Positions 3,891 to 27,274 of a stretch of DNA of 29,140 nucleotides are shown here, piece by piece. Location of the stretch: positions 1-29,140 of IMG/VR virus record IMGVR_UViG_3300020213_000242, one strand, 5' to 3'. The notes below the pieces were generated by a model. That model did no database searches. It saw only the letters and a list, made by a program, of their open reading frames with translations, and was not told where the DNA came from. The first letter of the stretch is position 1, and each line of letters starts with the position of its first letter. The position numbers and the translations under genes were made by a program. The DNA comes from a virus.

Positions 3891-4138
3891 GCGGCTCTCC
3901 TTCGGCCCACGGCGGCCCGCATCGCATTGTCTAGCGCGTACTGCGTCCGATGCGCCGTGGTGTGGCCGGGTCGGCGGGCGCACCGTTGGTGGGCGTAGCG
4001 CATCCACGCGCCACAGGTCGGGCGGTCAACGGGGCAGACGTGCCGGACCCCGTGACGGGTGCCCTCGCGCCACGACTTGCCGCCCCACCACACCGGCCGA
4101 CGGCAGACGACACAGGCTCCCGGAAGACGCGCGATCAT
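3887..4138 (-). CDS. Small zinc-motif basic protein
   Basis: 83 residues, ATG at 4138 overlapping the methyltransferase stop. Cysteines and histidines are arranged as CVVC (9-12), HVCP (33-36), C42 and C52 with histidines at 50, 59 and 63, and the protein is strongly basic (GRRRAA end). This resembles a zinc-ribbon or degraded HNH-like fold, but the HNH catalytic pattern is not complete. Likely nucleic-acid binding. It directly follows the methyltransferase in the operon. Confidence 0.6.
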   Translation of the reverse strand: MIARLPGACVVCRRPVWWGGKSWREGTRHGVRHVCPVDRPTCGAWMRYAHQRCARRPGHTTAHRTQYALDNAMRAAVGRRRAA

Positions 4139-5217
4139 GCGCCGAGCCCCAGCGGGATATCGCGGTTGCGGTCCATGACTTGCTCCAGGTACTCGCCGTT
4201 GAGGTCGATGAGGACAGCGCGGCGCGACAGCGACTGCGCCACCATGCCGGTCGTTCCAGAGCCCGCGAACGGGTCCAGAACAATCCCGCCTTGCGGGCAG
4301 CCCGCCTTGATGCACGGCTCCACGAGAGCGCGCGGGAACGTCGCGAAGTGCGCGCCCGGGTAGGGCTGGGTGGCGATGGTCCAGACGGAGCGGATGTTGC
4401 GCGACTGGGACGCGCCCATGACGCCACCCGGCGAGTGGCGGACTGTGTGGCCGTTCGTGCCGCCGATGCGGTCTGAGCGCTGGCGGTCAGGGTCGATGCC
4501 GACCTCCCGGACCGCATCGGCATCGAAGTAGTACCGCGGGCTCTTGGTGAGCAGGAACAGGTACTCGTGGCTCTTGGTCGGGCGGTCCGTGACGCTCTCG
4601 GGCATCGGGTTGGGCTTGGCCCAGATGATGTCCGAGCGCAGGTACCAGCCGTCAGCCTGGAGCGCGAAGGCGACGCGCCACGGGATGCCGACGAGGTCCT
4701 TGGGCTTGAGGCCGGATGCGGGCACGTCGTGGCGGCGTGTTCCTGGTCCGCGGCCGGTGCCGTTGTCGCTACTACCGTAGGCTCGCTCGCCGCCCGACGA
4801 AGCGTACGAGTCCCCGAGGTTGAGCCAGACCGTGCCATCGGATCGCAGCACGCGCCGGACCTCGCGGAAGACGGCGACCATCGACTCGACGTACGCCTCG
4901 GGCGTGGGCTCCAGGCCGAGCTGGGAGTCGATGCGGGTCGCGCCACACAGTACGCAGACATTCTGTGGACGGTCACGGGGCGAGCCGATCGGGTGCGCGC
5001 CACTAAGCGTGGAGGCGCCGGAGACGCCCATCCTCGGATCATGTCGGCACGTCGGATCTACTCCGCCAGCCCACGTCGCCGTCCCGTAGTCGCGGAGGCC
5101 CCAGTACGGCGGGCTCGTGACGACGCAATGGACGGACTCGGGCTCCATTGTCGCCATGACCTCGCGGCAGTCGCCGAGGTACACCGTGAGCCAGTCGTCG
5201 GCGTAGTACGGAGTCAT
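4135..5217 (-). CDS. DNA methyltransferase (beta-order, TSPPYW type)
   Basis: 360 residues from ATG at 5217, overlapping the upstream stop. The catalytic motif IV TSPPYWGLRDYG (34-45) precedes the SAM-binding motif I DPFAGSGTTG (315-324), the order of beta-class amino-methyltransferases. SPPY is most typical of N4-cytosine enzymes, but N6-adenine enzymes with this motif exist. A cysteine group (C57, CVLC at 88-91) suggests a zinc-stabilised insert, and WAKPNPMPESVTDRPTKSHEYLFLL (199-223) is the conserved target-region core of the family. The reaction is methyl transfer from SAM to a DNA base, which may protect phage DNA from host restriction. No partner endonuclease is next to it, so it is likely an orphan enzyme. 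It belongs to a four-gene cassette with a PLP enzyme and a second methyltransferase. Confidence 0.9.
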   Translation of the reverse strand: MTPYYADDWLTVYLGDCREVMATMEPESVHCVVTSPPYWGLRDYGTATWAGGVDPTCRHDPRMGVSGASTLSGAHPIGSPRDRPQNVCVLCGATRIDSQLGLEPTPEAYVESMVAVFREVRRVLRSDGTVWLNLGDSYASSGGERAYGSSDNGTGRGPGTRRHDVPASGLKPKDLVGIPWRVAFALQADGWYLRSDIIWAKPNPMPESVTDRPTKSHEYLFLLTKSPRYYFDADAVREVGIDPDRQRSDRIGGTNGHTVRHSPGGVMGASQSRNIRSVWTIATQPYPGAHFATFPRALVEPCIKAGCPQGGIVLDPFAGSGTTGMVAQSLSRRAVLIDLNGEYLEQVMDRNRDIPLGLGA

Positions 5218-5615
5218 CGCGAGCCCGCCAGCGCCGCGCGCTCCCGCTGCTCCGATGACGGCGAGCGATGACCGCCGACGTGGCCGCGTCCGCGACCGCA
5301 CGGGCCACCAGAGCGCGCCAGGGGGCCCCGACACGGCTCGGGCTTGCCCTTGCGGGGTCGGAGGTCGTGACCGCGGCCGGCGCCCCCCTTGGCGGCAGGT
5401 GGCACGCGCACGCCGGCAGCCACGGCGAGACGAGCGGCGCGCTGGACGGTCTGCGGCATGACGCCGAGGTCACGCGCGCAGCAGGATCGGTTTCCGTTGT
5501 GACCGCGCAGGCGATCCACGATGTAGCGGGTCCGCGCCGTGAGGGACCAATACGGGTCTACCTCGACGATGAGGCGGGTGGGGAGGCCGGGTTGGCTGAG
5601 GCGTAGGGCGCTCAT
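5214..5615 (-). CDS. Helix-turn-helix protein in the methyltransferase cassette
   Basis: 133 residues from ATG at 5615, overlapping the PLP-enzyme stop. Residues 27-75 (TARTRYIVDRLRGHNGNRSCCARDLGVMPQTVQRAARLAVAAG) carry a clear helix-turn-helix (CARDLGVMPQTVQRAARL). The C-terminal part (from about 80) is glycine/arginine/proline-rich and probably disordered. It may regulate the cassette or bring one of the enzymes to DNA. Not a member of a family I can name. Confidence 0.65.
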   Translation of the reverse strand: MSALRLSQPGLPTRLIVEVDPYWSLTARTRYIVDRLRGHNGNRSCCARDLGVMPQTVQRAARLAVAAGVRVPPAAKGGAGRGHDLRPRKGKPEPCRGPLARSGGPCGRGRGHVGGHRSPSSEQRERAALAGSR

Positions 5616-6298
5616 GCTCCGACGTTCCAATACAGCGCACCAGGAGCTGCATCGGCCTGAAAGTATCTCCAGACCTTGGCGTCGTAGTTATCTGCCGATG
5701 GGAACGGAGGCGGCATCCTCGCGGAGGACTCAAAGGCCTCGGGCGCGACCAAGAGCTCTGCCTGATCTGGCAAGATCGGCGGATGGCCTACCTGGACCGC
5801 TACCACTCGTGCCGTAGGCCATGCCTCCGCGATGCAGCGGGCTAGCACTCCAGATCCTGCCGCCACCCAGACCTCGTTGTGCCAGTAGGGCGCCACCGTG
5901 AGGACAGTCCCGACCAGCGACTGGCGGAACCGCGGATCGTCGAAGCCGTGTGGAAGCAGCACCGCCCCGGTCTGGATGCAGTAGTCGCGGGCGCGCTTGG
6001 TGACCACGTTGAGGTAGCCGTGCTCAACGGAAATCACCGTGGCCCCGTACGCCGCTGCTCGGAGCGTCAACGGCGACGGGCGCATACGAGCGGCGGAGAA
6101 GATGGTCGCCCGCAGCCCACGGGCCTGACAGGCGACGGCCAGCGCGACCTGTGCATAGCCGTAGGCCGGTGAGGCGTAGACGAACTCGTCCCCTCCCTCT
6201 AGGAGCGCATCCACGGCCCGTCGCTTGGTCCCACCTGGCAAGAGGTCATCGCGCAGGACATATCTATCTCCCAGAGGCTCGACCAGCGGCGTGATCAT
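5612..6298 (-). CDS. PLP-dependent enzyme (fold type II, short)
   Basis: 228 residues from ATG at 6298, overlapping the stop of the second methyltransferase. LLPGGTKRRAV (19-29) looks like the PLP-lysine segment of the tryptophan-synthase-beta/ACC-deaminase fold, with K25 as the Schiff-base lysine. ASPAYGYAQVALA (42-54) fits the loop that contacts substrate, and VAAGSGVLA (145-153) fits the glycine-rich phosphate loop. At 228 residues it is about 100 shorter than cellular members. Its substrate cannot be told. Its place between two DNA methyltransferases suggests work on DNA bases or on an amino acid used to modify them; this is inference. It could also be a metabolic gene. Confidence 0.75.
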   Translation of the reverse strand: MITPLVEPLGDRYVLRDDLLPGGTKRRAVDALLEGGDEFVYASPAYGYAQVALAVACQARGLRATIFSAARMRPSPLTLRAAAYGATVISVEHGYLNVVTKRARDYCIQTGAVLLPHGFDDPRFRQSLVGTVLTVAPYWHNEVWVAAGSGVLARCIAEAWPTARVVAVQVGHPPILPDQAELLVAPEAFESSARMPPPFPSADNYDAKVWRYFQADAAPGALYWNVGA

Positions 6299-7305
6299 GG
6301 TGTGCTCCAGTCGAATGATGTCTGCGGGTCGGGTGGCGCATCGCGCTCGTATGACCAGCCGCGCGGCTGGTCGCCTTTGATAAAGACCAGCACGTTCTGA
6401 TGGGTCCGACCCAGCTTGCGACCGGCCTCGAACTGCTTGGTGATGCGGATGGGGAGGCTGCCCGCCGAGTTGATGAGGATGGCCTCGTTGTAGTACCGCA
6501 TCCCAGCGTTGATGAACGCCGCGATGGTGTCGGGCACCAAGCCTTGGAACGTGCCGTCCTTGCCCCGTATCTCGGACACGACGATGCACGCCATACGGCC
6601 CGGCAACAGGCGGTCGACGGCCTTGACGATGATGCCTCGGTACATCTCGATGAACTGCCCGTAGGTCGAAAGGTTGGACAGGTCGTGCGGGTCGTCGCTG
6701 TACACCTCGAGGTCGTAATACGGCGGGCAGGTGAAGATCAGGTCCGCCGATGCCGCGATGGTGGGCAGGACGAGATGGCTGTCGCCCACGATCCACTCGG
6801 GTACGGGCTGTGTCGTCAGGATGCGTGCCGCCTGCTCGCGGTTGGCTTCGATCTGCCGCGCGGACAGGTCGATGCCGATGTACGGGTGGCCCAGGTATGC
6901 GGCCACGATGCCGCGGACGCTGCCGCCGGCAAAGGGGTCCAGCACAGTCCCTCCGGGTGGGCAGAACCAGCGGTAGGCCAGCTCGCAGAGCACCGGATCG
7001 AAGATGCTGGTTCCGGGGGCGGTAACGTCGGCGCCGAGGTGCTCGCCCTTCATCATGTCGGTGCTAAAGGCACGGGCCGGTCCGTTGCGCCCCATCGTGG
7101 GGTCGTATCCGGTGCCGTAGTTGCCACCCGGCTCTAGCCCTCGCCCTAGCTCCGACTGGAGGCCCAGCCCCAGCCACCAGCGGCGACGCTCCTGCCAGTA
7201 ACCTTGGCGGGTGTCCAGAATGCTGAATGGCGGCACCACGAAGCGCTCCAGCAGCGCGCCCGATAGGTCGGCCTCGGGCGGAACCCACGTCATGTCAGTA
7301 GTCAC
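6295..7305 (-). CDS. DNA methyltransferase (motif I before TCPPYYDLE)
   Basis: 336 residues from GTG at 7305, chosen because GGGGGAGGA lies just upstream; an internal ATG at 7293 is the alternative. The N-terminus PPFSILDTRQGYWQERRR (25-42) is seen in phage methyltransferases that associate with ParB-like domains. Motif I is VLDPFAGGSVRG (121-132), the adenosine-binding part follows (IGIDLSARQIEANREQ), and motif IV is TCPPYYDLEVYSDDP (192-206). The order differs from that of the other methyltransferase, so the two are of separate origin. The CPPY motif fits an amino-methyltransferase acting on adenine or cytosine, but the DLEVYSDDP tail is unusual and a modified reaction is possible. First gene of the cassette, after an 80-base gap. 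Confidence 0.85.
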   Translation of the reverse strand: MTTDMTWVPPEADLSGALLERFVVPPFSILDTRQGYWQERRRWWLGLGLQSELGRGLEPGGNYGTGYDPTMGRNGPARAFSTDMMKGEHLGADVTAPGTSIFDPVLCELAYRWFCPPGGTVLDPFAGGSVRGIVAAYLGHPYIGIDLSARQIEANREQAARILTTQPVPEWIVGDSHLVLPTIAASADLIFTCPPYYDLEVYSDDPHDLSNLSTYGQFIEMYRGIIVKAVDRLLPGRMACIVVSEIRGKDGTFQGLVPDTIAAFINAGMRYYNEAILINSAGSLPIRITKQFEAGRKLGRTHQNVLVFIKGDQPRGWSYERDAPPDPQTSFDWSTP

Positions 7306-7385
7306 AGGTCCTCCCCCATGCGCGGGATGGTTGCCCATGCCCGATAGCGCTAGCGCTTGGCGCGATACGTCGAGCGCCCCGCGCT
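7306..7385 (-). promoter_or_regulatory. 80-base gap before the methyltransferase cassette, with a 12-base palindrome
   Basis: One of only two sizeable gaps inside this operon. It holds the perfect palindrome AGCGCTAGCGCT (7346-7357) and the GGGGGAGGA ribosome site for the GTG at 7305. I see no TTGACA-type promoter. The palindrome shares its CGCTAGCG core with the one at 2503-2512 and may be a regulator site. Confidence 0.3.
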
Positions 7386-8012
7386 TCACAGGCCCATGCC
7401 GTACCCGACCGACTGCGCTCGGACCATGCCGACTGTGATGCCGTGCCCGATGAGCGTGGCCTTCGACTCGGCGGCCATCCGACCGCGCTCGGTGATGGCG
7501 ACGGGGATAAACAACGCGCCGCCAGGCGCCGGCCGGTTGTGGCCGGCGCAGCCGCAAGTGCGGAACGTAGTGGCGTCGGGGTCGTCGCCTGCGGGCATGA
7601 TGACGTGCCGGTACAGGTCCTCGGTTCGGACGACGTAGGCGTTGATGAGCTCACCTCGGCTGCGGTTGACGTATGCCTGGATGGTCAGCGTCGGATATGA
7701 CCCGCCGTTCATGACAGACCGATACCGCTTCAGTAGCTCGGTATTGTGCGATCCGCCGCCGGTCCTCCATCGGATTGAGAACGTGCCGTAGTCGCGGTCC
7801 CACTGAGCGCGCGTCGCCAGGGTCGTAATGGTGCCGTTGCGCTGGGCTACGATCCAGTCGATGCCGGCGCGCTCGTCCTGCGTCGTGCCCTCGGCATGGA
7901 CCAGCTCGCCGCGCGGCACCAGCCCCACGGCCACGAGCGCCGGATGGACGACATCGCGGTATGCGTCCTCGGGCGATAACTTGTTCGACTTAGGTAGCTG
8001 GAGAAGGGTCAT
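7386..8012 (-). CDS. Hypothetical protein, possible nuclease-like fold
   Basis: 208 residues from ATG at 8012, overlapping the upstream stop. The central part GIDWIVAQRNGTITTLATRAQW (50-71) reads as two strands with an aspartate and a basic residue, loosely like the core of PD-(D/E)XK nucleases but lacking the ExK. FSIRWRTGGGSHNTELLKRY follows, then a CGCAGHNRPAPGG segment (153-165) that could hold metal. A DNA-processing role would fit the neighbours (resolvase-like, RecT, exonuclease upstream; methyltransferase downstream). The family is not recognised and the nuclease idea is weak. Confidence 0.55.
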   Translation of the reverse strand: MTLLQLPKSNKLSPEDAYRDVVHPALVAVGLVPRGELVHAEGTTQDERAGIDWIVAQRNGTITTLATRAQWDRDYGTFSIRWRTGGGSHNTELLKRYRSVMNGGSYPTLTIQAYVNRSRGELINAYVVRTEDLYRHVIMPAGDDPDATTFRTCGCAGHNRPAPGGALFIPVAITERGRMAAESKATLIGHGITVGMVRAQSVGYGMGL

Positions 8013-8454: not shown

Positions 8455-8933
8455 CCCTCGACCTCCGGGAGTCCGTGCCGTTCCGCGAAGTCGGCCAGCC
8501 GGAACACGATCAGTCGCTCGCCGCCGCGTCCCGGCTCGACCCAGACGAAGCCCGGCATCTCCGCGCCGGACCCGATGCGGGCCAGCTCGGAGGCCACGAA
8601 GCGCAGGGAAGGCGCAGTCGCCAGCTTCTTGACCTGGAGTCGGGCGTAGCCGGGCATCTCGACATCCCACGGCAGCCCAAGCGGCCCCATCTTCTTGCCG
8701 CCTAGGTGACGGGCCACCACGAGCTCGGCAGCGTTCCCGCGTGACCGCGAGTTGCGCCCGCGGCGGGAGGTCGCATCGTCGCGGACCTTGCCGCAGCGCT
8801 GGCAGACAATCCCCGACTGGCGACCATCGGTGAAGTCGAGAACCATTAACCACTCGTGGCGGAGGCAGACCTTCGCGGGTGCCGCTCCGGGGTTGGCCGC
8901 GGACGGGTAGTCGAACGGCAGGTCGTCAGTCAC
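8451..8933 (-). CDS. Resolvase-like PD-(D/E)XK nuclease with zinc motif
   Basis: 160 residues from GTG at 8933, overlapping the RecT stop (GTGA). CLRHEW (23-28) and CQRCGK (44-49) form a likely zinc-binding site. Then RGNAAELVVARHLGG (65-79) gives the first acidic residue, and LPWDVEMPGYARLQVKK (87-103) gives the D...QxKK core typical of Holliday-junction-resolvase and related restriction-like nucleases. The C-terminal EMPGFVWVEPGRGGERLIVFRLADF closes the fold. It probably cuts branched DNA made by the exonuclease and annealing protein encoded just upstream. The exact substrate is not shown. Confidence 0.7.
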   Translation of the reverse strand: MTDDLPFDYPSAANPGAAPAKVCLRHEWLMVLDFTDGRQSGIVCQRCGKVRDDATSRRGRNSRSRGNAAELVVARHLGGKKMGPLGLPWDVEMPGYARLQVKKLATAPSLRFVASELARIGSGAEMPGFVWVEPGRGGERLIVFRLADFAERHGLPEVEG

Positions 8934-9712
8934 TTCAGGCCGCCCGCGATCAGCGCGCGTTCCTCGTCATCGAGCGGCAGCATCGGCACCGACTCGGCCT
9001 CGACCACGGCGCCTTCCTCAACAGGCTCCGGCTCCCAAGTCAGCAGCTCATCGAGGAGCGCCTGCCGCTGGGCATCGGTCAGCTCGGTGCCGTCCGGGAA
9101 CATGCCCTGGCGAACGTCGGCGGCGTACTTGGCCGGGATGCCGTGGTCCTTCAGCGCGGCGACGAACGCGGCCTTTGACATCCCCGATGTCACGGCCTCG
9201 CGGGCGGCGGCGGCTCGTTCGGCCAGCGACGGGCGGGCGACGGGCTCCGCAGCCGGAAGGTTTATGTCCCACCGTTCCTCGATGACCGGGGCGGCCACGT
9301 CGAAGGCGCGGCGCAGAGCCATGACCTCGGCGACCTTGACCGCCATCTCCGGCGCGAACTTGGCGTTGCCGCCCTTCTCCGGGTAGCGTCCGCTGTAGGT
9401 GAACGGACGGCTCATGTCCTTGCGGTACACCGAGCACGAGGCCCGCCAGTAGCCGTCTGCCAGGATCGGGTCCGTCGTCTCGATGCCGTCAAGCTCCTTG
9501 GAGCGATGGGCGACGTGTAGCAGACCGTCACGGGTGATGTACGGCTTGCCGTCGATCATCACAAGGTGCTTGAGCATGAGGTCGAGCTCGTACCGCTGCG
9601 CGATGTTCAGCGCCAGCTCGCGCTGCTCGGGACTCACGCGGTCCAGCCCGACCGCGCGCAGTAGCGTCAACTCGCGCGGGTCCGTGACCGAGGGAACGAC
9701 TTCGATCGCCAT
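8930..9712 (-). CDS. recT: RecT-type single-strand DNA annealing protein
   Basis: 260 residues from ATG at 9712 with AAGGAG upstream and only 3 bases after the exonuclease stop. LKHLVMIDGKPYITRDGLLH (48-67) and GNAKFAPEMAVKVAEVMALR (115-134), followed by RAFDVA, are signature segments of the phage RecT group. Residues 150-220 form a variable linker with SLAERAAAAREAV and a helical domain, and the C-terminus is acidic (EPEPVEEGAVVEAE), as is usual for annealing proteins. It pairs complementary single strands produced by the exonuclease, acting in phage recombination and repair. The pairing with the YqaJ exonuclease gene makes the call firm. Confidence 0.9.
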   Translation of the reverse strand: MAIEVVPSVTDPRELTLLRAVGLDRVSPEQRELALNIAQRYELDLMLKHLVMIDGKPYITRDGLLHVAHRSKELDGIETTDPILADGYWRASCSVYRKDMSRPFTYSGRYPEKGGNAKFAPEMAVKVAEVMALRRAFDVAAPVIEERWDINLPAAEPVARPSLAERAAAAREAVTSGMSKAAFVAALKDHGIPAKYAADVRQGMFPDGTELTDAQRQALLDELLTWEPEPVEEGAVVEAESVPMLPLDDEERALIAGGLK

Positions 9713-9715
9713 GTC

Positions 9716-10651
9716 CTACTCCTTGTCCAGCGTGACGCGGAAGGGTCGGAAGCCCTGCCTGACCGTCGTTGCGATCCCGACGAGGGCCTGTGCCTCTGTC
9801 TCGGGAAGTTGCCGCAGAAGGCCATCGGCGACCGACTTCCAGTCGACCTGCTCCGATGACTTCGTCTGCCTCCAGGTGACGCGGAAGCCCTGACCCACGA
9901 GGGTCGCGACCTCGCCCATGCGAGCCTTGATGGCCGACTCGATGGCTTCCTCGTTGGACTCCAGCGCCTTGCGGTCGGCGCGCGTCGCGAGCAGCGCCCG
10001 GACGGCCTCGGCGATATCCGCATCGGCGACCATCTCGGAGCCGTCGTCGGACGGGTGGTCGCGCCGGATGCGGGCGGCGTCACGGGCGAACGGCCCGCCG
10101 GCAGCAAGCCGCGCGCGGAAGCCTTCGGCCACCACGACGAGGTCCGCGAAGAGCGCCGGGTCGGCCCGCTGCTCGAAGATGGCGAAGTCGTCATCGCCTA
10201 CCAGCACGGCCACGTCGGCGACGGGGAAACCCGTGATGCCGAGCTGCCAGGCCACCTGCGCCTCGATGTCCTGCGGGATGCCGTCAGCGAAGCGTGTCCG
10301 GCTGGAGGTCCGCTTGGCTTCCACCAGCCGACGCTCGCCCCGCACTCCGAAGTCCGGCGACGCGGCGGCCCACTCGATGTCGTCGTGGCGGACCATGCCG
10401 TGGTAGCGATGGATGCGTCGGCCGGTGCGCCGCGCGTATTCCTCGCCGATCAGGTCTTGGACGGCAGAGCCGACGCGCATCCGCAGGCTCGCCTCCTGTC
10501 CGACGCCGGTCAGCTTCTCGTCGGCCAGGTCGGCCTCGCAGCGGTACGGCGACAGCCCCAGCAGGACCGCGATGTCAGTCGCCGTGACGAGGCCCCGGCG
10601 CGCCTCCAGCCACGCATCGGACCCCTGCTCCAGCGCCAGGTGGACGGCCAT
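9716..10651 (-). CDS. YqaJ-type viral recombination exonuclease
   Basis: 311 residues from ATG at 10651, which overlaps the preceding stop (TGATG). LEARRGLVTATDIAVLLGLSPY (15-36) is the YqaJ/lambda-exonuclease N-terminal motif, GSAVQDLIGEEYARRTG (61-77) supplies a catalytic glutamate, and ASPDFGVRGERRLVEAKRT (97-115) holds D100, E111 and K113 of the PD-(D/E)XK core. IPQDIEAQVAWQLGITG (125-141) is the QxxxY-like helix. It degrades one strand of duplex ends to give single strands for the RecT protein encoded next. The C-terminal 110 residues are helical and variable. A longer upstream frame to 10711 lies inside the previous gene. Confidence 0.9.
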   Translation of the reverse strand: MAVHLALEQGSDAWLEARRGLVTATDIAVLLGLSPYRCEADLADEKLTGVGQEASLRMRVGSAVQDLIGEEYARRTGRRIHRYHGMVRHDDIEWAAASPDFGVRGERRLVEAKRTSSRTRFADGIPQDIEAQVAWQLGITGFPVADVAVLVGDDDFAIFEQRADPALFADLVVVAEGFRARLAAGGPFARDAARIRRDHPSDDGSEMVADADIAEAVRALLATRADRKALESNEEAIESAIKARMGEVATLVGQGFRVTWRQTKSSEQVDWKSVADGLLRQLPETEAQALVGIATTVRQGFRPFRVTLDKE

Positions 10652-11007
10652 CAGTAGCTCCCAGCCATCCGGTCCCACAGCTCGGCGGACCGCTCCTGGC
10701 AGTCGGCGCACTCGGGATCGGGCTCGTCGTCATGGGCGGCGTGGGTGCCCTCGATGGCATCCAGCGCGGCATCCTCGGCCTCGGTGTAGGGCGTCATGGA
10801 ATCTCTCGGGTGGTGGCGAGGCGCGCGAAGGGCGGCGCGGGCGCGAAGCTCGTGCCAGCGGCGCAGCAGAGCGACCTCGTCGGCGAGGGCGACCCAGTCG
10901 GGAGCGACTGTGCCGGATGGTCCGTCCACGCAATCCCCGGTGTGGCGTCGATAGCACCATGACGCGTGGTCGGGTGTGGCGTCGTCGGCGGTCAGCGGCT
11001 CGGTCAT
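10651..11007 (-). CDS. Mosaic hypothetical protein sharing modules with the 105-560 gene
   Basis: 118 residues from ATG at 11007 (TGATG overlap). The start MTEPLTADDA, the RAPRHHPRDS linker and the MTPYTEAEDAAL segment repeat the modules of the gene at 105-560. 26 bases are identical (301-326 and 10766-10791). The ATG at 10797 could begin a separate 48-residue protein: in the alternative frame the sequence before it reads RLATTREIP and a stop overlapping that ATG. CYRRHTGDC (18-26) and CADCQE (102-107) supply cysteines. Function unknown; probably a fusion of two small genes. Confidence 0.6.
   Translation of the reverse strand: MTEPLTADDATPDHASWCYRRHTGDCVDGPSGTVAPDWVALADEVALLRRWHELRARAALRAPRHHPRDSMTPYTEAEDAALDAIEGTHAAHDDEPDPECADCQERSAELWDRMAGSY
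10766..10791. repeat. 26-base identical segment shared with 301-326
   Basis: Second copy, next to the internal ATG at 10797 and to the 15-base boundary fragment at 10803-10817. Confidence 0.9.
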
Positions 11008-23033: not shown

Positions 23034-23087
23034 TCAGCAGACGCACGCCGGGGTAGCGCCCGCACAGGGCGGCAGGGCCGGGTTCAT
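23034..23087 (-). CDS. Possible 17-aa cysteine-bearing mini-protein
   Basis: ATG at 23087 overlaps the stop of the glycosyltransferase (ATGA), exactly like real gene junctions here, and encodes MNPALPPCAGATPACVC. The remaining 90 bases to the connector gene hold no frame; they contain a small GTCCG-AAAG-CGGAC hairpin (22986-22999). It could be a chance coupling or a decayed gene, so confidence is low. Confidence 0.25.
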   Translation of the reverse strand: MNPALPPCAGATPACVC

Positions 23088-24340
23088 GCTGCGACCTCTA
23101 GGCGGGAACTGACGATGTCGCGGAACTGCTCGGCAGCCCGCGCCCAGGAGAAGTTGGCGGCGACGTGCCGGGGACCGGCTGCGCCGAGTGAGCGCCGGAA
23201 CGCCGGCTTGCGAATGAGGCGTTCGACGTGCTGGCCCCACTCGTCGGGGTCCTCGGCGGCCCAGTGGTGGTCGTATTCGTTGTCGATCAGGTGCGCGACT
23301 GACGCCGTCAGGCCCGCGGGGCCGATGACCTCAGGGACCGCCGAGTAGTTGATGCCGACTGCCGGCACACCACACGCGATGGCCTCGGCGACCGTCAGGC
23401 CGAAGCCCTCGGCGCTGTTCTGGACGTAGATGTCCGCGGCGTTGTACAGCACGTTCAGCTCCTCCCGAGACAGACCCTGGAACGTGTTGTGCGCGTTGGT
23501 CAGGAACACCCGCTCCCGGAACCAGATGGGGTACTTGGACAGCGAGTCGTAGAGCAACCCGCCTTGGTCGTGCGGCCGGCAGTGGATGACCAGGTCGGCT
23601 TCGGGGTTGCGCTCGAACACCGGCAGCAGCGCCCGGAGCATCGCGTTGTATCGCTTGCGCGGCATGTGCCGGTCCGTCCGCAGTAGCATCACCCGCTTCG
23701 TGTCGATGCCGAAGTGCTCCTTGGCAGTGAGCTTGGAAGTGATGCGCTTCCCTTCGACGGCGGCCGGCCGGTTGGCCGCGACGGGGTAGAGCTTGGAAGT
23801 GATGCGCTTCCCTTCGACGGCGGCCGGCCGGTTGGCCGCGACGGGGTAGAACACCGACTGATCCACGCCGTGATAGACCATCGGCGGGCGACGGCCCATG
23901 ACCTCCTCGATCTGGTCAGCGCCGAACTTGGTCATCGCGACCGGGCTCACGATGTCCCACAGGCCCTTCCACGCGGGCGGAAGTCCGACGCCCTCGACGG
24001 GGACGTAGTGGTAGGACGGCACCGCCTGGAGTGCTTCGCGTACCCGCTGGTCCACGACGATCCAGCGAGCGGCAAAGTAGTCACCCAGGATGATGATGCC
24101 CTCGGGCTTCCACTTGTCCGGCATACCCTCGCCGGTCAGCGCCGCTAGGACGTGCTCCGGTCGGGCGTCATCGTTGAGGCGGAACGTCCGGCTGCCCAGC
24201 GGCTCAGGGATTGCGAAGCCCGCCGCGTTCTGCGACAGGAAGCGCACGTCCTCGCCGAGGTCCAGCAGCGCCCGCCCAAGGTCGGCGGTCACGGTCCCGA
24301 AGCCCGTTGCGGCAGCGTCGCCGACGAACAGGAGCCTCAT
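23084..24340 (-). CDS. GT-B glycosyltransferase (GT4-like) with internal duplication
   Basis: 418 residues from ATG at 24340, overlapping the upstream stop; a longer start to 24418 runs through the previous gene and was rejected. FVGDAAATGFGTVTADLGRALLDLG (5-29) is the N-terminal domain motif of GT4 enzymes, RTDRHMPRKRYNAMLRAL starts the second domain, and EGFGLTVAEAIACGVPAVG (311-329) is the nucleotide-sugar binding E-x7-E motif. MVYHGVDQSVFYPV precedes a perfect 20-residue tandem duplication (165-184 and 185-204). It transfers a sugar from a nucleotide sugar to an unknown acceptor. Confidence 0.85.
   Translation of the reverse strand: MRLLFVGDAAATGFGTVTADLGRALLDLGEDVRFLSQNAAGFAIPEPLGSRTFRLNDDARPEHVLAALTGEGMPDKWKPEGIIILGDYFAARWIVVDQRVREALQAVPSYHYVPVEGVGLPPAWKGLWDIVSPVAMTKFGADQIEEVMGRRPPMVYHGVDQSVFYPVAANRPAAVEGKRITSKLYPVAANRPAAVEGKRITSKLTAKEHFGIDTKRVMLLRTDRHMPRKRYNAMLRALLPVFERNPEADLVIHCRPHDQGGLLYDSLSKYPIWFRERVFLTNAHNTFQGLSREELNVLYNAADIYVQNSAEGFGLTVAEAIACGVPAVGINYSAVPEVIGPAGLTASVAHLIDNEYDHHWAAEDPDEWGQHVERLIRKPAFRRSLGAAGPRHVAANFSWARAAEQFRDIVSSRLEVAA
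23729..23850. repeat. Perfect 60-bp tandem duplication inside a glycosyltransferase gene
   Basis: The unit starting GCTTGGAAGTGATGCG (plus strand) occurs at 23731-23790 and again, without a mismatch, at 23791-23850; two flanking bases also match. 60 bases is 20 codons, so the frame is kept. The lack of any divergence points to a very recent event or an assembly artefact. Confidence 0.95.
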
Positions 24341-25362
24341 GCCAGGAACTCCGCGATACGCGCGGCCTCGGCGTCGAAGTCCACCAGCTCGTCGAAGGTG
24401 GCCCGGATGGCTTCGCACATGGCCCGATGTCGGCTAGCATCGCGCGCGATGTCCACGATCATTTCCGCGGCCTCGCCGAGCGTGTGCTTGTCAAGGTCGA
24501 TGCAGGTCACGCCGTCCTGCCACAACGGCTCGGCCATGAGGCCCCGGTAGTGGGCCGCGTGCCCGATGAGCGGTCGGCCGATGGCGGCCCAGGCGTGGAT
24601 GACATGCCCGAACCCGTCTCCCTGCACCTTGTCGTGCCAGCCGAAGGCCGAGCCGCGCATGAGCGCCGCGATGTCGGCCACCGTCTCGATGTTGCCATCC
24701 GGGCCGTCGATGCCGTGGCTGGCGAGGGTGAACCCCGGCAGGCACTGCCGCATCTGCTCAAACGGCCGGGCGCACGGGGTGGAGCCGAAGCAGTTGACGA
24801 AGGAACGGATGGTCAGGGACGCCGCTGGCGGGTCCGCGTATCCGAACAGCCCTTCGGCGTCGAACTCCTGATGATAGACGATGCCCTTCCCGCGGATCGG
24901 AACCTCGGAACTGACGAGGGCTAGCGGGTCGAGGCCCCAGTCCACCGACTGGTTCGTGTTGCCGACCTGGAGGACGAACTTGGCTCCGATCTCGCGGGCC
25001 AGCTTGGCGAACCCGCGCTGATTGTCCTGCACCGTCGCCACGACGTAGCCCCACTCGGACGGGGTAGCGCGGAGGGCGCCGAGCTCGACCCCCAGGATCT
25101 CCCGCTCGGGATGGTGGCCGTCGACTGTGCGGAACGTCCGGTAGCCCGGCTGCTGTCCGAAGTCCCGTTCGGTCCAGCCGTCCAGCGCGAGGAACTGGCG
25201 GGCCAGCCGGTCATCGCCGTAGCCTTCGCCGAAGCGCCACACGTCCTCATCCCACCATTCATGGCCCACGGGGGTATAGACGATGTGCCCGAGCCTGTCC
25301 CCGAACAGGCGCTGCAGGCTGTAGAACAGCGCGTGGTGGTGGCGGTCGATAAGCACCCTCAT
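24337..25362 (-). CDS. Glycosyltransferase-like protein
   Basis: 341 residues from ATG at 25362, overlapping the stop of the upstream glycosyltransferase. The start MRVLIDRHHHALFYSLQRLFGDRLGHIVYTPVGHEWWDE resembles a family of phage and bacterial glycosyltransferases whose first strand ends in DxHH. GSAFGWHDKVQGDGFGHVIHAWAAIGRPLIGH (about 232-263) is the C-terminal GT-B nucleotide-binding region. No transmembrane segment. It probably acts with the two flanking transferases to build or decorate a glycan. Confidence 0.75.
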   Translation of the reverse strand: MRVLIDRHHHALFYSLQRLFGDRLGHIVYTPVGHEWWDEDVWRFGEGYGDDRLARQFLALDGWTERDFGQQPGYRTFRTVDGHHPEREILGVELGALRATPSEWGYVVATVQDNQRGFAKLAREIGAKFVLQVGNTNQSVDWGLDPLALVSSEVPIRGKGIVYHQEFDAEGLFGYADPPAASLTIRSFVNCFGSTPCARPFEQMRQCLPGFTLASHGIDGPDGNIETVADIAALMRGSAFGWHDKVQGDGFGHVIHAWAAIGRPLIGHAAHYRGLMAEPLWQDGVTCIDLDKHTLGEAAEMIVDIARDASRHRAMCEAIRATFDELVDFDAEAARIAEFLA

Positions 25363-26387
25363 CGGAGGTATGCCTTCCACGCCGCGGCCACCGCTGCCTT
25401 GCCGAAGATGTCGATGGCGCGCTGGCGGATGGCGATGGAAACGTCCACTGCCGGTTCGGCCAGGAGTTGCCGCAGGTGCAGCGCCGCTACCGCCGGGTCA
25501 TCGGAGAACGACGACGCCAGCTCGTGGCCCTCGAACAGCGACGGCCCGTAGGGGAAGACGTTGTGATGGCTCGGCCCGATGGACACGATCGGGATGCCGG
25601 TCATCATCGCCTCGATGAGGCCCAGCGTATACGAGGCCGGCTGCGTCCCGGTGTACAGGTAGGCCCGCGCCATGCGGAGCGCGGTGTGCATGTCGTCATA
25701 GGACAGCTCGCCCGAGCCGCCGACGGCCTCCGAGCCCGGACCGAGGGCCATCGCCGATAGGCCCTTCGTCGCGTCACGCCAGAACTCATAGTTGGTGTAC
25801 GGGTGGCGCTGCGCCAGGTGCTGCGTGATGTTGATGACGATCTGCGTATCGCCGGTCCAGCCCGTGTATTCGGCGGGGTCGACCCAGAAGCGAATGAGCG
25901 CGTCGTGCCCGGAGTAGCCGGGGATGTTCGCTTCCTTGGGCGAGTAGGCGACCCGCTCCAGTCCCTGCCGGCGATACGGCGCGGCCTGCTGCTCGTTGTT
26001 CGTGACCGACTGGCCGACCGAGCGCCAGATGATGCGCCGGCCCGACGATGCGTCACGCCATGCCCGAATGCGGTCCCACTGCCCGTACAGCCGGTCCAGG
26101 TAGTGGTGATAGATGATGATGCCGTCGTCGCCCAGCCAGTCGAGGATGGCGTCGGGGATGTGTGCCTGAGCGGCGCCGAGGTTGTCATCCGTCCCGAGCG
26201 CGTCCACCGCGTCCTTGACGGCCTGCACCATCGGCACCTGCGGCAGCGGCGGGCGCTTCGGATCGTGCGGATGGGCGGGGTCGATGTAGCCGCCGATGCT
26301 GGCGACCTGGTACCCGAGCTCGTGGAGGAGCTGGAGCTGCTGGCTTTCCTCGATGCTGTGACTGAGGCAGAGCAGGATGCGGGTCAT
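25359..26387 (-). CDS. GT-B glycosyltransferase (GT4-like)
   Basis: 342 residues from ATG at 26387, overlapping the methyltransferase stop. MTRILLCLSHSIEESQQLQLLHELGYQV starts a Rossmann domain; IIYHHYLDRLYGQWDRIRAW and IIWRSVGQSV continue it. The donor-binding motif is TLGLIEAMMTGIPIVSIG (254-271), preceded by ARAYLYTG. It lacks signal or membrane segments, so it acts in the cytoplasm, presumably on phage proteins or on sugar precursors. Second gene of four coupled sugar-modifying genes. Confidence 0.8.
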   Translation of the reverse strand: MTRILLCLSHSIEESQQLQLLHELGYQVASIGGYIDPAHPHDPKRPPLPQVPMVQAVKDAVDALGTDDNLGAAQAHIPDAILDWLGDDGIIIYHHYLDRLYGQWDRIRAWRDASSGRRIIWRSVGQSVTNNEQQAAPYRRQGLERVAYSPKEANIPGYSGHDALIRFWVDPAEYTGWTGDTQIVINITQHLAQRHPYTNYEFWRDATKGLSAMALGPGSEAVGGSGELSYDDMHTALRMARAYLYTGTQPASYTLGLIEAMMTGIPIVSIGPSHHNVFPYGPSLFEGHELASSFSDDPAVAALHLRQLLAEPAVDVSIAIRQRAIDIFGKAAVAAAWKAYLR

Positions 26388-27088
26388 GACCGGATCGCCG
26401 TGAAGCCGCCTGGGCCGCCGTCAGGGCCTGTGAACGTCACGTTGTGCGTCGCCACCAGCAAGGCGGCCATATCATCCTGCGTGTGGCCCCTGACCGGATG
26501 CCACTCGCCGAGGATGATGCCCACGTCCTTGACCGCGGGGGAGCTCAGGAAGGCCCACTCGGCGCCCTCCGTGTCGATCTTCAGGAGCGTGAGCGGACCG
26601 TGAGCCTTGACCAGCGAGGCGAGGCTGATGGCCTTGTACGTCGAGGTCTGGTGCGGCAGCATCGAGCCGTGGTCATAGGCCAACGTCGAGTTGCCGACGA
26701 AGGCGTGATGCTCGGCAGACTCGGAGCCCGTGTAGCCGTACCACACGTCCACCGTCTCGCCGCCCTTGCCCACTGCCCCGATGACGAGCGTGATGCGCTC
26801 GGCGAGGCCGTTGGCGTCGATGTTCTGGCGGATCAGCTCGGCGTTCGGCGGGACTGGTTCGATGATGACGACGCGCAGTCCGGGGTTGTCCGCCGCCAGC
26901 GCGATGCCGACCGAGCCGAGGTAGCCGCCGACGTCGATGGCGGTCCCTGTCAGGCCCGATGGGAGGCGGTATTCGTCGCCGTCCAGGCTCGCGTTGAGCG
27001 TGTTGTAGTCGTTCGTGTCCCGCCGGTAGTGCATCATCACGCGATGCCCGCCGGGAGTCGTGAACGCTCGTTGCGTAGGTGCGTACAT
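26384..27088 (-). CDS. FkbM-family SAM-dependent methyltransferase
   Basis: 234 residues from ATG at 27088, which overlaps the stop of a 37-aa membrane peptide (TGATG). AIDVGGYLGSVGIALAA (50-66) is the SAM-binding loop, VVIIEPVPPNAELIRQNI (73-90) the acidic strand and helix, and LLKIDTEGAEWAFL (168-181) the classic FkbM motif. Such enzymes O-methylate sugars and small molecules; the neighbours (three glycosyltransferases) suggest a sugar on a glycan. A longer frame upstream to 27259 is poorly coding. First enzyme of the island. Confidence 0.85.
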   Translation of the reverse strand: MYAPTQRAFTTPGGHRVMMHYRRDTNDYNTLNASLDGDEYRLPSGLTGTAIDVGGYLGSVGIALAADNPGLRVVIIEPVPPNAELIRQNIDANGLAERITLVIGAVGKGGETVDVWYGYTGSESAEHHAFVGNSTLAYDHGSMLPHQTSTYKAISLASLVKAHGPLTLLKIDTEGAEWAFLSSPAVKDVGIILGEWHPVRGHTQDDMAALLVATHNVTFTGPDGGPGGFTAIRS

Positions 27089-27201
27089 CAGAGCCACCCC
27101 ATCCATCGCAGGATGGTCGGATAAAGCCAGAACCAGAACGCGACGTTGGTGGCGATGCCCACGACTACCGTGAGCAGTGAGCAGCCGATACTTCGGTCCA
27201 T
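27088..27201 (-). CDS. 37-aa single-pass membrane peptide
   Basis: ATG at 27201 with GAGGG upstream, stop at 27088 overlapping the next ATG. MDRSIGCSLLTVVVGIATNVAFWFWLYPTILRWMGWL is almost wholly hydrophobic (residues 5-27 form one span) with aromatic residues at the C-terminal membrane edge. Too short for many gene callers. The membrane location is clear from composition; the job is unknown, and its coupling to the methyltransferase suggests a role in anchoring or linking the glycosylation set. Confidence 0.55.
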   Translation of the reverse strand: MDRSIGCSLLTVVVGIATNVAFWFWLYPTILRWMGWL

Positions 27202-27239
27202 GTCTTGTGCCCTCGTGTGCGTGCCCTTGGAGGTGGTGG

Positions 27240-27274
27240 TGCAGGCGGGACGAGGGCACCCGAACCCGCCTGCA
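27240..27274. terminator. 10-bp stem-loop upstream of the glycosylation island, no U-tract
   Basis: TGCAGGCGGG (27240-27249) pairs perfectly with CCCGCCTGCA (27265-27274) around a 15-base loop, in the gap between the 54-aa gene and the membrane peptide gene. Without a T-run it may be an mRNA processing or stability element rather than a terminator, perhaps lowering expression of the island relative to capsid. Confidence 0.4.

Follow-up and report, generated by a model that had tools for sequence, protein, structure and literature searches.

What does a virus gain from a gene for a pyridoxal 5′-phosphate (PLP) enzyme directly behind a gene for a DNA methyltransferase? The question is raised by a virus record of 29,140 bases, IMGVR_UViG_3300020213_000242, the whole of which is called the window here. 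An earlier note on this DNA had described a cassette of four genes, in which a PLP enzyme and a helix-turn-helix (HTH) protein lie between two methyltransferases, and had suggested that a base of the DNA may receive something larger than a methyl group. We find that the conserved unit is smaller and consists only of one of the methyltransferases, MT2, and the PLP enzyme. We propose that these two form a DNA hypermodification module, in which MT2 would install an amino-acid-bearing group and the PLP enzyme would tailor it, and we put the probability of this reading at about 45%. We consider it probable that the group added to the DNA is not a plain methyl.

Recurrence of the MT2–PLP pair

IMG/VR was searched with the PLP enzyme sequence and then with an alignment of PLP relatives, the alignment scan returning at least 549 relatives. 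Every open reading frame (ORF) of 83 loci from the two scans was scored against an MT2 profile built from relatives. An MT2-family methyltransferase lies within 2.5 kb of the PLP gene, or in the same ORF, in 77 of the 83: at most 200 bases away or overlapping in 62, up to 2.5 kb away in 8, and in a single ORF in 7. Since some loci are near-duplicates, 77/83 is not a count of independent lineages. Among the six exceptions, L052 and L059 carry MT2 elsewhere on the contig, which brings the total to 79/83; L092 has, at the edge of its contig, a C-terminal remnant of MT2, L072 is truncated at its end, and MT2 is absent from the remaining two, L035 and L055. Such an association is far from what chance would give, since just 22 of 50,697 phage records contain MT2 across 80% or more of its length. 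The recurrence of a PLP enzyme with a methyltransferase, which the earlier note had set as a test of its idea, is thus observed.

The dependence runs in one direction. At loci fetched with MT2, the PLP gene is present in only 19/79, and in 11 of the 45 flanked on each side by 1.5 kb or more; set against 77/83, this means that PLP depends on MT2 and MT2 does not depend on PLP. A tree built from 105 MT2 cores requires 22 changes in the presence of PLP, and at least nine of these changes are forced by well-supported branches. In the window and in L012, which holds the closest relative of MT2 (79% identical), the PLP gene is cleanly present in the one and absent in the other between MT2 and the following ORF.

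Adjacent but separate MT2 and PLP genes are found in Microcystis phage Mae-JY30 and in mycobacteriophages Vincenzo and AlanGrant. When genome contigs were searched, a single PLP sequence found no match, and the PLP alignment found 21 loci, of which 10 adjoin MT2 and 11, more distant, do not. No third modification gene recurs near MT2: when the ORFs neighbouring 102 MT2 loci with PLP and 69 without it were clustered, the clusters comprised terminase, portal and similar genes, together with a few weak or antisense ones. Likewise, no motif residue of MT2 is tied to the presence of PLP, the top columns being gappy and barely above shuffles.

In Staphylococcus phage Alsa_1 (L206:1918-4678), a divergent PLP enzyme is preceded, at a distance of about 1 kb, by a DNA methyltransferase that weakly matches phrog_12517; this is possibly a further variant of the module.

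MT2 and the inserted PLP domain

MT2 belongs to the CPPY DNA methyltransferases of phages (phrog_12517/phrog_498), of which it is a ParB-less member. Its motif I, DPFAGGSVRG, comes before motif IV, CPPYYDLE, and it matches the Pfam family N6_N4_Mtase (PF01555) with E=1.4e-11 and 45.2 bits, against a curated cut-off of 26.7. The first position of motif IV is Cys, rather than that of a (D/N/S)PPY motif, in all 69 PLP-bearing and all 35 PLP-less relatives. Of the two GTG codons given in Table 1, the upstream one is most likely the start, because from there MT2 and the gene before it overlap in GTGA and because an equivalent start codon is present in L012.

The relation between the two enzymes is closest where they are one protein. 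The PLP domain is found inside the methyltransferase in at least 11 proteins, always at one insertion point, at about position 152–159 of the MT2 profile, between motif I and CPPY, and the inserted domains come from two PLP clades. Clade A, to which the window enzyme belongs, provides the insertions in L039, L049, L063, L068, L080/L090, ZS04 and R6L; clade B provides those in L024, L025, Pam4 and, apparently, L026, whose protein is divided between two frames of the contig. The named fusions are those of Erythrobacter phages R6L and ZS04 (812 residues in ZS04) and of Pseudanabaena phage Pam4 (829 residues). The methyltransferases of L013, without PLP, and L024, with PLP, are 82% identical, and the insert is their sole large internal difference. 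An AlphaFold2 (AF2) model of one fusion has both domains intact, with the PLP insert placed after the helix that follows strand 2.

The PLP enzyme

The PLP enzyme of the window had been described as a 228-residue protein of fold type II, and this assignment holds. It matches Pfam PALP (PF00291) with E=1e-9 and 38.6 bits, the cut-off being 35, and its AF2 model has a pLDDT (predicted local distance difference test) of 96.4. The best solved fold is that of D-cysteine desulfhydrase 4d9f (Z 22.7, 226 residues, 2.4 Å), followed by a homologue of 1-aminocyclopropane-1-carboxylate (ACC) deaminase, 1j0a (Z 22.6); many PALP chains match the whole protein at Z 20–23, CysK and CysM at about 21. The key residues are Lys25, the glycine loop AGSG at 147–150, and Tyr205 and Lys208 of the sequence YDAK. 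Lys25 is invariant in the 77 aligned relatives, as are Arg16-Asp17-Asp18, Gly23, Gly47, Gly118, Lys208 and Trp224, and the AGSG loop and Tyr205 are nearly so. In an alignment with E. coli enzymes, Lys25 falls in the column of DcyD's GGNK lysine and of the catalytic lysines in CysK, CysM and TdcB, while Tyr205 aligns with the Tyr of DPVYTGK in DcyD. The active-site lysine, on which the earlier note had set a further test, is thus in place, and the fold is intact; judged by alignment and model, the enzyme looks active.

The likeness to D-cysteine desulfhydrase and ACC deaminase comprises the closest fold, the catalytic Lys and a C-terminal Tyr-x-x-Lys. The window enzyme nevertheless differs from them in length, with 228 versus about 325 residues, and in sequence, with 16% identity. 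Moreover, the SN(H/Q) loop that binds the substrate carboxylate, SNH in DcyD, is replaced by PAYGYAQ in clade A, with AYGYAQ at this place in the window enzyme, clade B retaining S-P-Q, so the substrate of the window enzyme probably differs from that of DcyD.

Standalone PLP enzymes of 260–267 residues that share the motif RDDLLPGG(T/S)KQR occur in bacterial chromosomes (L112, L114, L115, L116 and L121), in mixed genomic contexts and with no methyltransferase. It is possible that chromosomal enzymes of this type are the source of the phage clade.

Kinship with known hypermodification enzymes

The clade B enzyme of Vincenzo (gp2) is 35% identical to MONT_41 of phage Montesquieu (E=4e-46), and the Montesquieu PLP enzyme in turn matches Vi01_182 of phage ViI (E=2e-19). 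MONT_41 adjoins an annotated alpha-glutamyl/putrescinyl thymine pyrophosphorylase clade 2 and two PF18751 P-loop nucleotide kinases. PHROG 3271 is common to this pyrophosphorylase and to the amino acid:DNA transferase (ADDT) of mycobacteriophage Fortunato. Relatives of MONT_41 are present in 346 phage records, mostly of Ackermannviridae-type phages of Salmonella, Klebsiella, Escherichia and Dickeya. The DNA of ViI contains 5-(2-aminoethoxy)methyl-deoxyuridine (PMC6449724; PMC11721090), and its genome (Vi01) also encodes an ADDT. In a phylogeny of 24 PLP proteins, the MT2-linked enzyme of Vincenzo groups with those of Montesquieu, Vibrio 1.244 and Vi01 (support 93/92), and clade A, with the window, forms a separate, more distant branch. 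As Lee et al. (2021) reportedly found, amino acids installed on 5-hydroxymethyldeoxyuridine are modified further by several enzymes, PLP-dependent decarboxylases among them. The module thus shares with the thymidine hypermodification of ViI and M6 the same fold-type-II PLP family (MONT_41, Vi01_182, Vibrio 1.244), but its partner is a methyltransferase of the CPPY type, dependent on S-adenosylmethionine (SAM), into which the PLP domain can be inserted.

The other enzymes of these pathways were looked for in 26 MT2+PLP records, among them four whole phages. ADDT (PF18724) was found in none, with a profile that finds the enzyme of Vi01 and misses the clade 2 enzyme of Montesquieu. The PF18751 kinase was found in one, Vincenzo; the profile matches in Montesquieu and not in Vi01, and so does not cover all such kinases. 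Tet_JBP had no match, in a search without a positive control.

The kinase match in Vincenzo is gp4 (L204:2559-3152), annotated as terminase small subunit/adenylate kinase, which matches PF18751 (P-loop nucleotide kinase 3) with 242.7 bits and may, by this match, be a base-modification kinase. A distant PLP clade lies in a conserved operon (L118:3796-6807 and L120:304-3084), possibly another PLP-based modification set. In L118 the operon proteins of 402, 329 and 335 residues have no Pfam match, and the last matches phrog_13881; a reading of these neighbours as a thymidine-modification set is unsupported by Pfam and PHROGs, the 402-residue protein being without a phage relative.

Exchange of cassettes in Coopervirus

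The left end of Coopervirus genomes, ahead of the terminase, behaves as a slot. It is occupied in Stinger by ParB and a protein resembling Tet_JBP (E=4e-6, short of the curated cut-off), in Fortunato by ParB and ADDT (35.3 bits, cut-off 26.2), and in Vincenzo by ParB-MT2 and PLP. Between Vincenzo and Stinger, the ParB parts share 78% identity. In Rhodococcus phage Tonitrus, genes for ParB, a TET-like protein, aGPT-Pplase2 and a 5-hydroxymethyluracil kinase stand together at the genome start (PMC11955845). The exchange in the slot and the Tonitrus gene set place MT2 and PLP among interchangeable DNA-modification cassettes.

Stinger gp2 (L214:776-1744) is annotated as a queuine tRNA-ribosyltransferase, which is the label of phrog_6059, while Pfam points to Tet_JBP. 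From the sequence match, it is probably a misannotated TET/JBP dioxygenase, the error having spread through PHROGs.

Comparison with methyltransferase-based systems

CmoA makes carboxy-SAM, and CmoX, a C5-cytosine enzyme with an SPPC motif, uses it (PMC12783734). The CmoA/CmoX/CmoY system of carboxymethylcytosine resembles the proposed module in that a methyltransferase homologue installs a handle and a second phage enzyme extends it, often with ParB-domain proteins nearby; it differs in that the second enzyme is an ATP ligase and not a PLP enzyme (PMC12783734). A C5-cytosine methyltransferase (PF00145) was found in two of 21 PLP records searched and not in the window. A second likeness is to the ParB-fused N6/N4 phage methyltransferases (PMC12704722), whose methyltransferase half (phrog_498) includes MT2, although the ParB half is missing from the MT2 of the window. 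The survey of these fusions makes no mention of PLP or pyridoxal (PMC12704722), and nowhere in the accessible literature is a ParB-type methyltransferase described together with a PLP enzyme; Iyer et al. 2013 may contain a related prediction. Amino acids bound to DNA are known to be tailored by PLP enzymes, and a handle installed by a methyltransferase is known from CmoX (PMC12783734). The accessible literature does not describe the two combined in one ParB-associated module, with the PLP domain inserted in the methyltransferase.

A possible mechanism

PLP enzymes require the amino group of an amino acid. We propose that MT2 would bind its target site, which relatives would do through a fused ParB-like domain, and flip out the base. 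It would then use SAM to put an amino-acid-bearing group on the base, most simply the 3-amino-3-carboxypropyl (acp) arm instead of the methyl group. The adjacent or fused PLP enzyme would form an aldimine with the appended amino acid and reshape the group, perhaps decarboxylating it to aminopropyl, much as PLP enzymes are believed to act on amino acids appended to 5-hydroxymethyluracil in ViI. The resulting phage DNA would escape host nucleases. MT2 is the best candidate for the installer because ADDT is found in 0/26 records, a kinase of the hydroxymethyl-base type in 1/26, and no third gene recurs. Its motifs are the same with and without PLP, which fits a single product that PLP optionally tailors.

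The narrower proposal, that MT2 moves the acp arm of SAM onto an exocyclic amine and that PLP reshapes it on the DNA with no 5-hydroxymethyl pyrimidine involved, is possible, and we hold it only tentatively; acp as the product is a guess. We infer a base in DNA as the substrate, acp transfer by MT2, the type of PLP reaction and a protective role. The suggestion that a base receives more than a methyl group is favoured by recurrence, insertion, the intact lysine, the homology to hypermodification enzymes and the slot exchange; what it has lost is its four-gene scope.

Several points weigh against the two-enzyme proposal. What can be said here of the product, substrate and activity of MT2 and PLP comes from genes and models. 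We know of no earlier case in which acp is transferred to DNA. The SAM motif I of MT2 is an ordinary one, and Pfam labels the protein an N6/N4 methylase. The SNH-type substrate loop of DcyD is absent from the clade A sequences. The absence of another installer is only partly tested, because the ADDT profile missed the annotated clade 2 enzyme of Montesquieu. Finally, in Rossmann methyltransferases the helix after strand 2 points away from the active site, and since this is the helix of the insertion in the model, direct channelling from MT2 to PLP would not be obvious.

In the known routes by which amino acids reach phage DNA, a hydroxymethyl pyrimidine is phosphorylated and then substituted. 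An amino acid handle taken straight from SAM and followed by PLP chemistry would, if true, constitute another, far shorter route. With the IMG/VR relatives counted above, the family is large, and the fusions allow one-protein biochemistry. Since the module occurs in culturable phages, namely Vincenzo and AlanGrant (M. smegmatis), R6L and ZS04 (Erythrobacter), Pam4 and Mae-JY30, virion DNA is directly amenable to mass spectrometry.

Alternative explanations

Could PLP act before MT2 rather than after it? The PLP enzyme might make a SAM analogue, starting from SAM or from an amino acid precursor, for MT2 to transfer. This CmoA/CmoX-like logic is known in phages (PMC12783734), and insertion or adjacency would suit hand-over of a cofactor. 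A new cofactor should, however, need changes in the pocket, as with the Arg of CmoX, and no conserved-motif residue of MT2 separates PLP-bearing from PLP-less members beyond chance; we consider this alternative unlikely.

It is improbable that the PLP enzyme itself adds an amino acid fragment, for example aminoacrylate from serine by beta-addition, to a base that MT2 methylates or exposes. The PLP lysine is intact and the related fold-type-II enzymes CysK and CysM (Z about 21) do perform beta-replacement, but in fold the enzyme is nearest to D-cysteine desulfhydrase and ACC deaminase, and the related PLP enzymes of hypermodification pair with a separate amino acid:DNA transferase. We give equally little credence to ordinary orphan methylation, with PLP as an auxiliary metabolic gene of the serine/threonine dehydratase type and a chance companion. 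The Pfam, PHROG and NCBIfam labels would agree with it, as would the distant standalone homologues in bacterial chromosomes, away from methyltransferases; it is opposed by the 79/83 association, the repeated gain and loss, and one insertion point used by two clades.

PLP enzymes act on amino acids, S-adenosylhomocysteine among them, and many phages have MT2 without PLP, so the enzyme might clear S-adenosylhomocysteine or degrade SAM beside an ordinary methyltransferase. A SAM-degrading partner would starve a methyltransferase fused to it, and the kinship with hypermodification enzymes and the slot exchange would be left unexplained; this role is hardly likely. The PLP domain is very improbably a non-catalytic specificity or scaffolding domain, for although its insertion point, between motifs I and IV, is the place of the target-recognition domain in alpha-class amino-methyltransferases, Lys25 is invariant (77/77), the AGSG loop and Tyr205 are nearly so, and PLP is a separate protein in most phages.

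The four-gene stretch and its surroundings

Preference for the two-gene module over the four-gene cassette rests on the behaviour of the other two genes (Table 1), neither of which recurs with MT2 and PLP. The 4-base overlaps given in the earlier note are present: the four ORFs lie on the minus strand, with ATGA overlaps at 6298-6295 (MT2/PLP), 5615-5612 (PLP/HTH) and 5217-5214 (HTH/MT1), and a further ATGA overlap joins MT1 to the next ORF at 4138-4135. The opposite motif order of the two methyltransferases was also read correctly, MT2 running from I to IV and MT1 from IV to I, with TSPPYW before DPFAGSGTTG. MT1 matches N6_N4_Mtase with E=1.7e-49, above the curated cut-off, and is an ordinary CcrM-like neighbour and not a recurrent partner of MT2 and PLP. 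The call of an HTH protein is weaker than it seemed, since HTH_8 matches with E=0.019 and 15.1 bits, below the cut-off of 22, and no PHROG matches. Beside MT2 in L012, MT1 and the HTH gene are absent except for an N-terminal stretch of the HTH ORF: its first 15 residues directly follow MT2 there, where the PLP gene is absent. Among the four genes, PADLOC matches methyltransferase models only, and Pfam and PHROGs find no restriction endonuclease among the ORFs searched near the module in this record, which is a fragment.

Table 1. Positions of the module genes and of other features in the window.
Feature	Position	Strand	Remarks
MT2	6295..7389	(-)	364 residues from GTG 7389; 336 residues from GTG 7305, used earlier
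PLP enzyme, fold type II, 228 residues	5612..6298	(-)	Pfam PALP, AF2, residue alignment
Small ORF, 133 residues	5214..5615	(-)	Weakly HTH-like N-terminal half; outside the conserved module
MT1	4135..5217	(-)	N6/N4 DNA methyltransferase, beta-order (IV...I), phrog_67, CcrM-like
RecT/Bet-like annealing protein	8930-9712
YqaJ/RecE-like exonuclease	9716-10711		PF09588, E=6e-18
Glycosyltransferase-like ORF	23084-24418		By eye
ORF resembling the preceding	24337-25380		By eye
ORF resembling the preceding two	25359-26387		By eye
Methyltransferase-like ORF	26384-27259		By eye

The exonuclease and annealing protein genes lie slightly upstream of the module. Farther along, among structural genes, the first of the three glycosyltransferase-like ORFs contains an exact tandem repeat of YPVAANRPAAVEGKRITSKL, and the methyltransferase-like ORF comes after the third.

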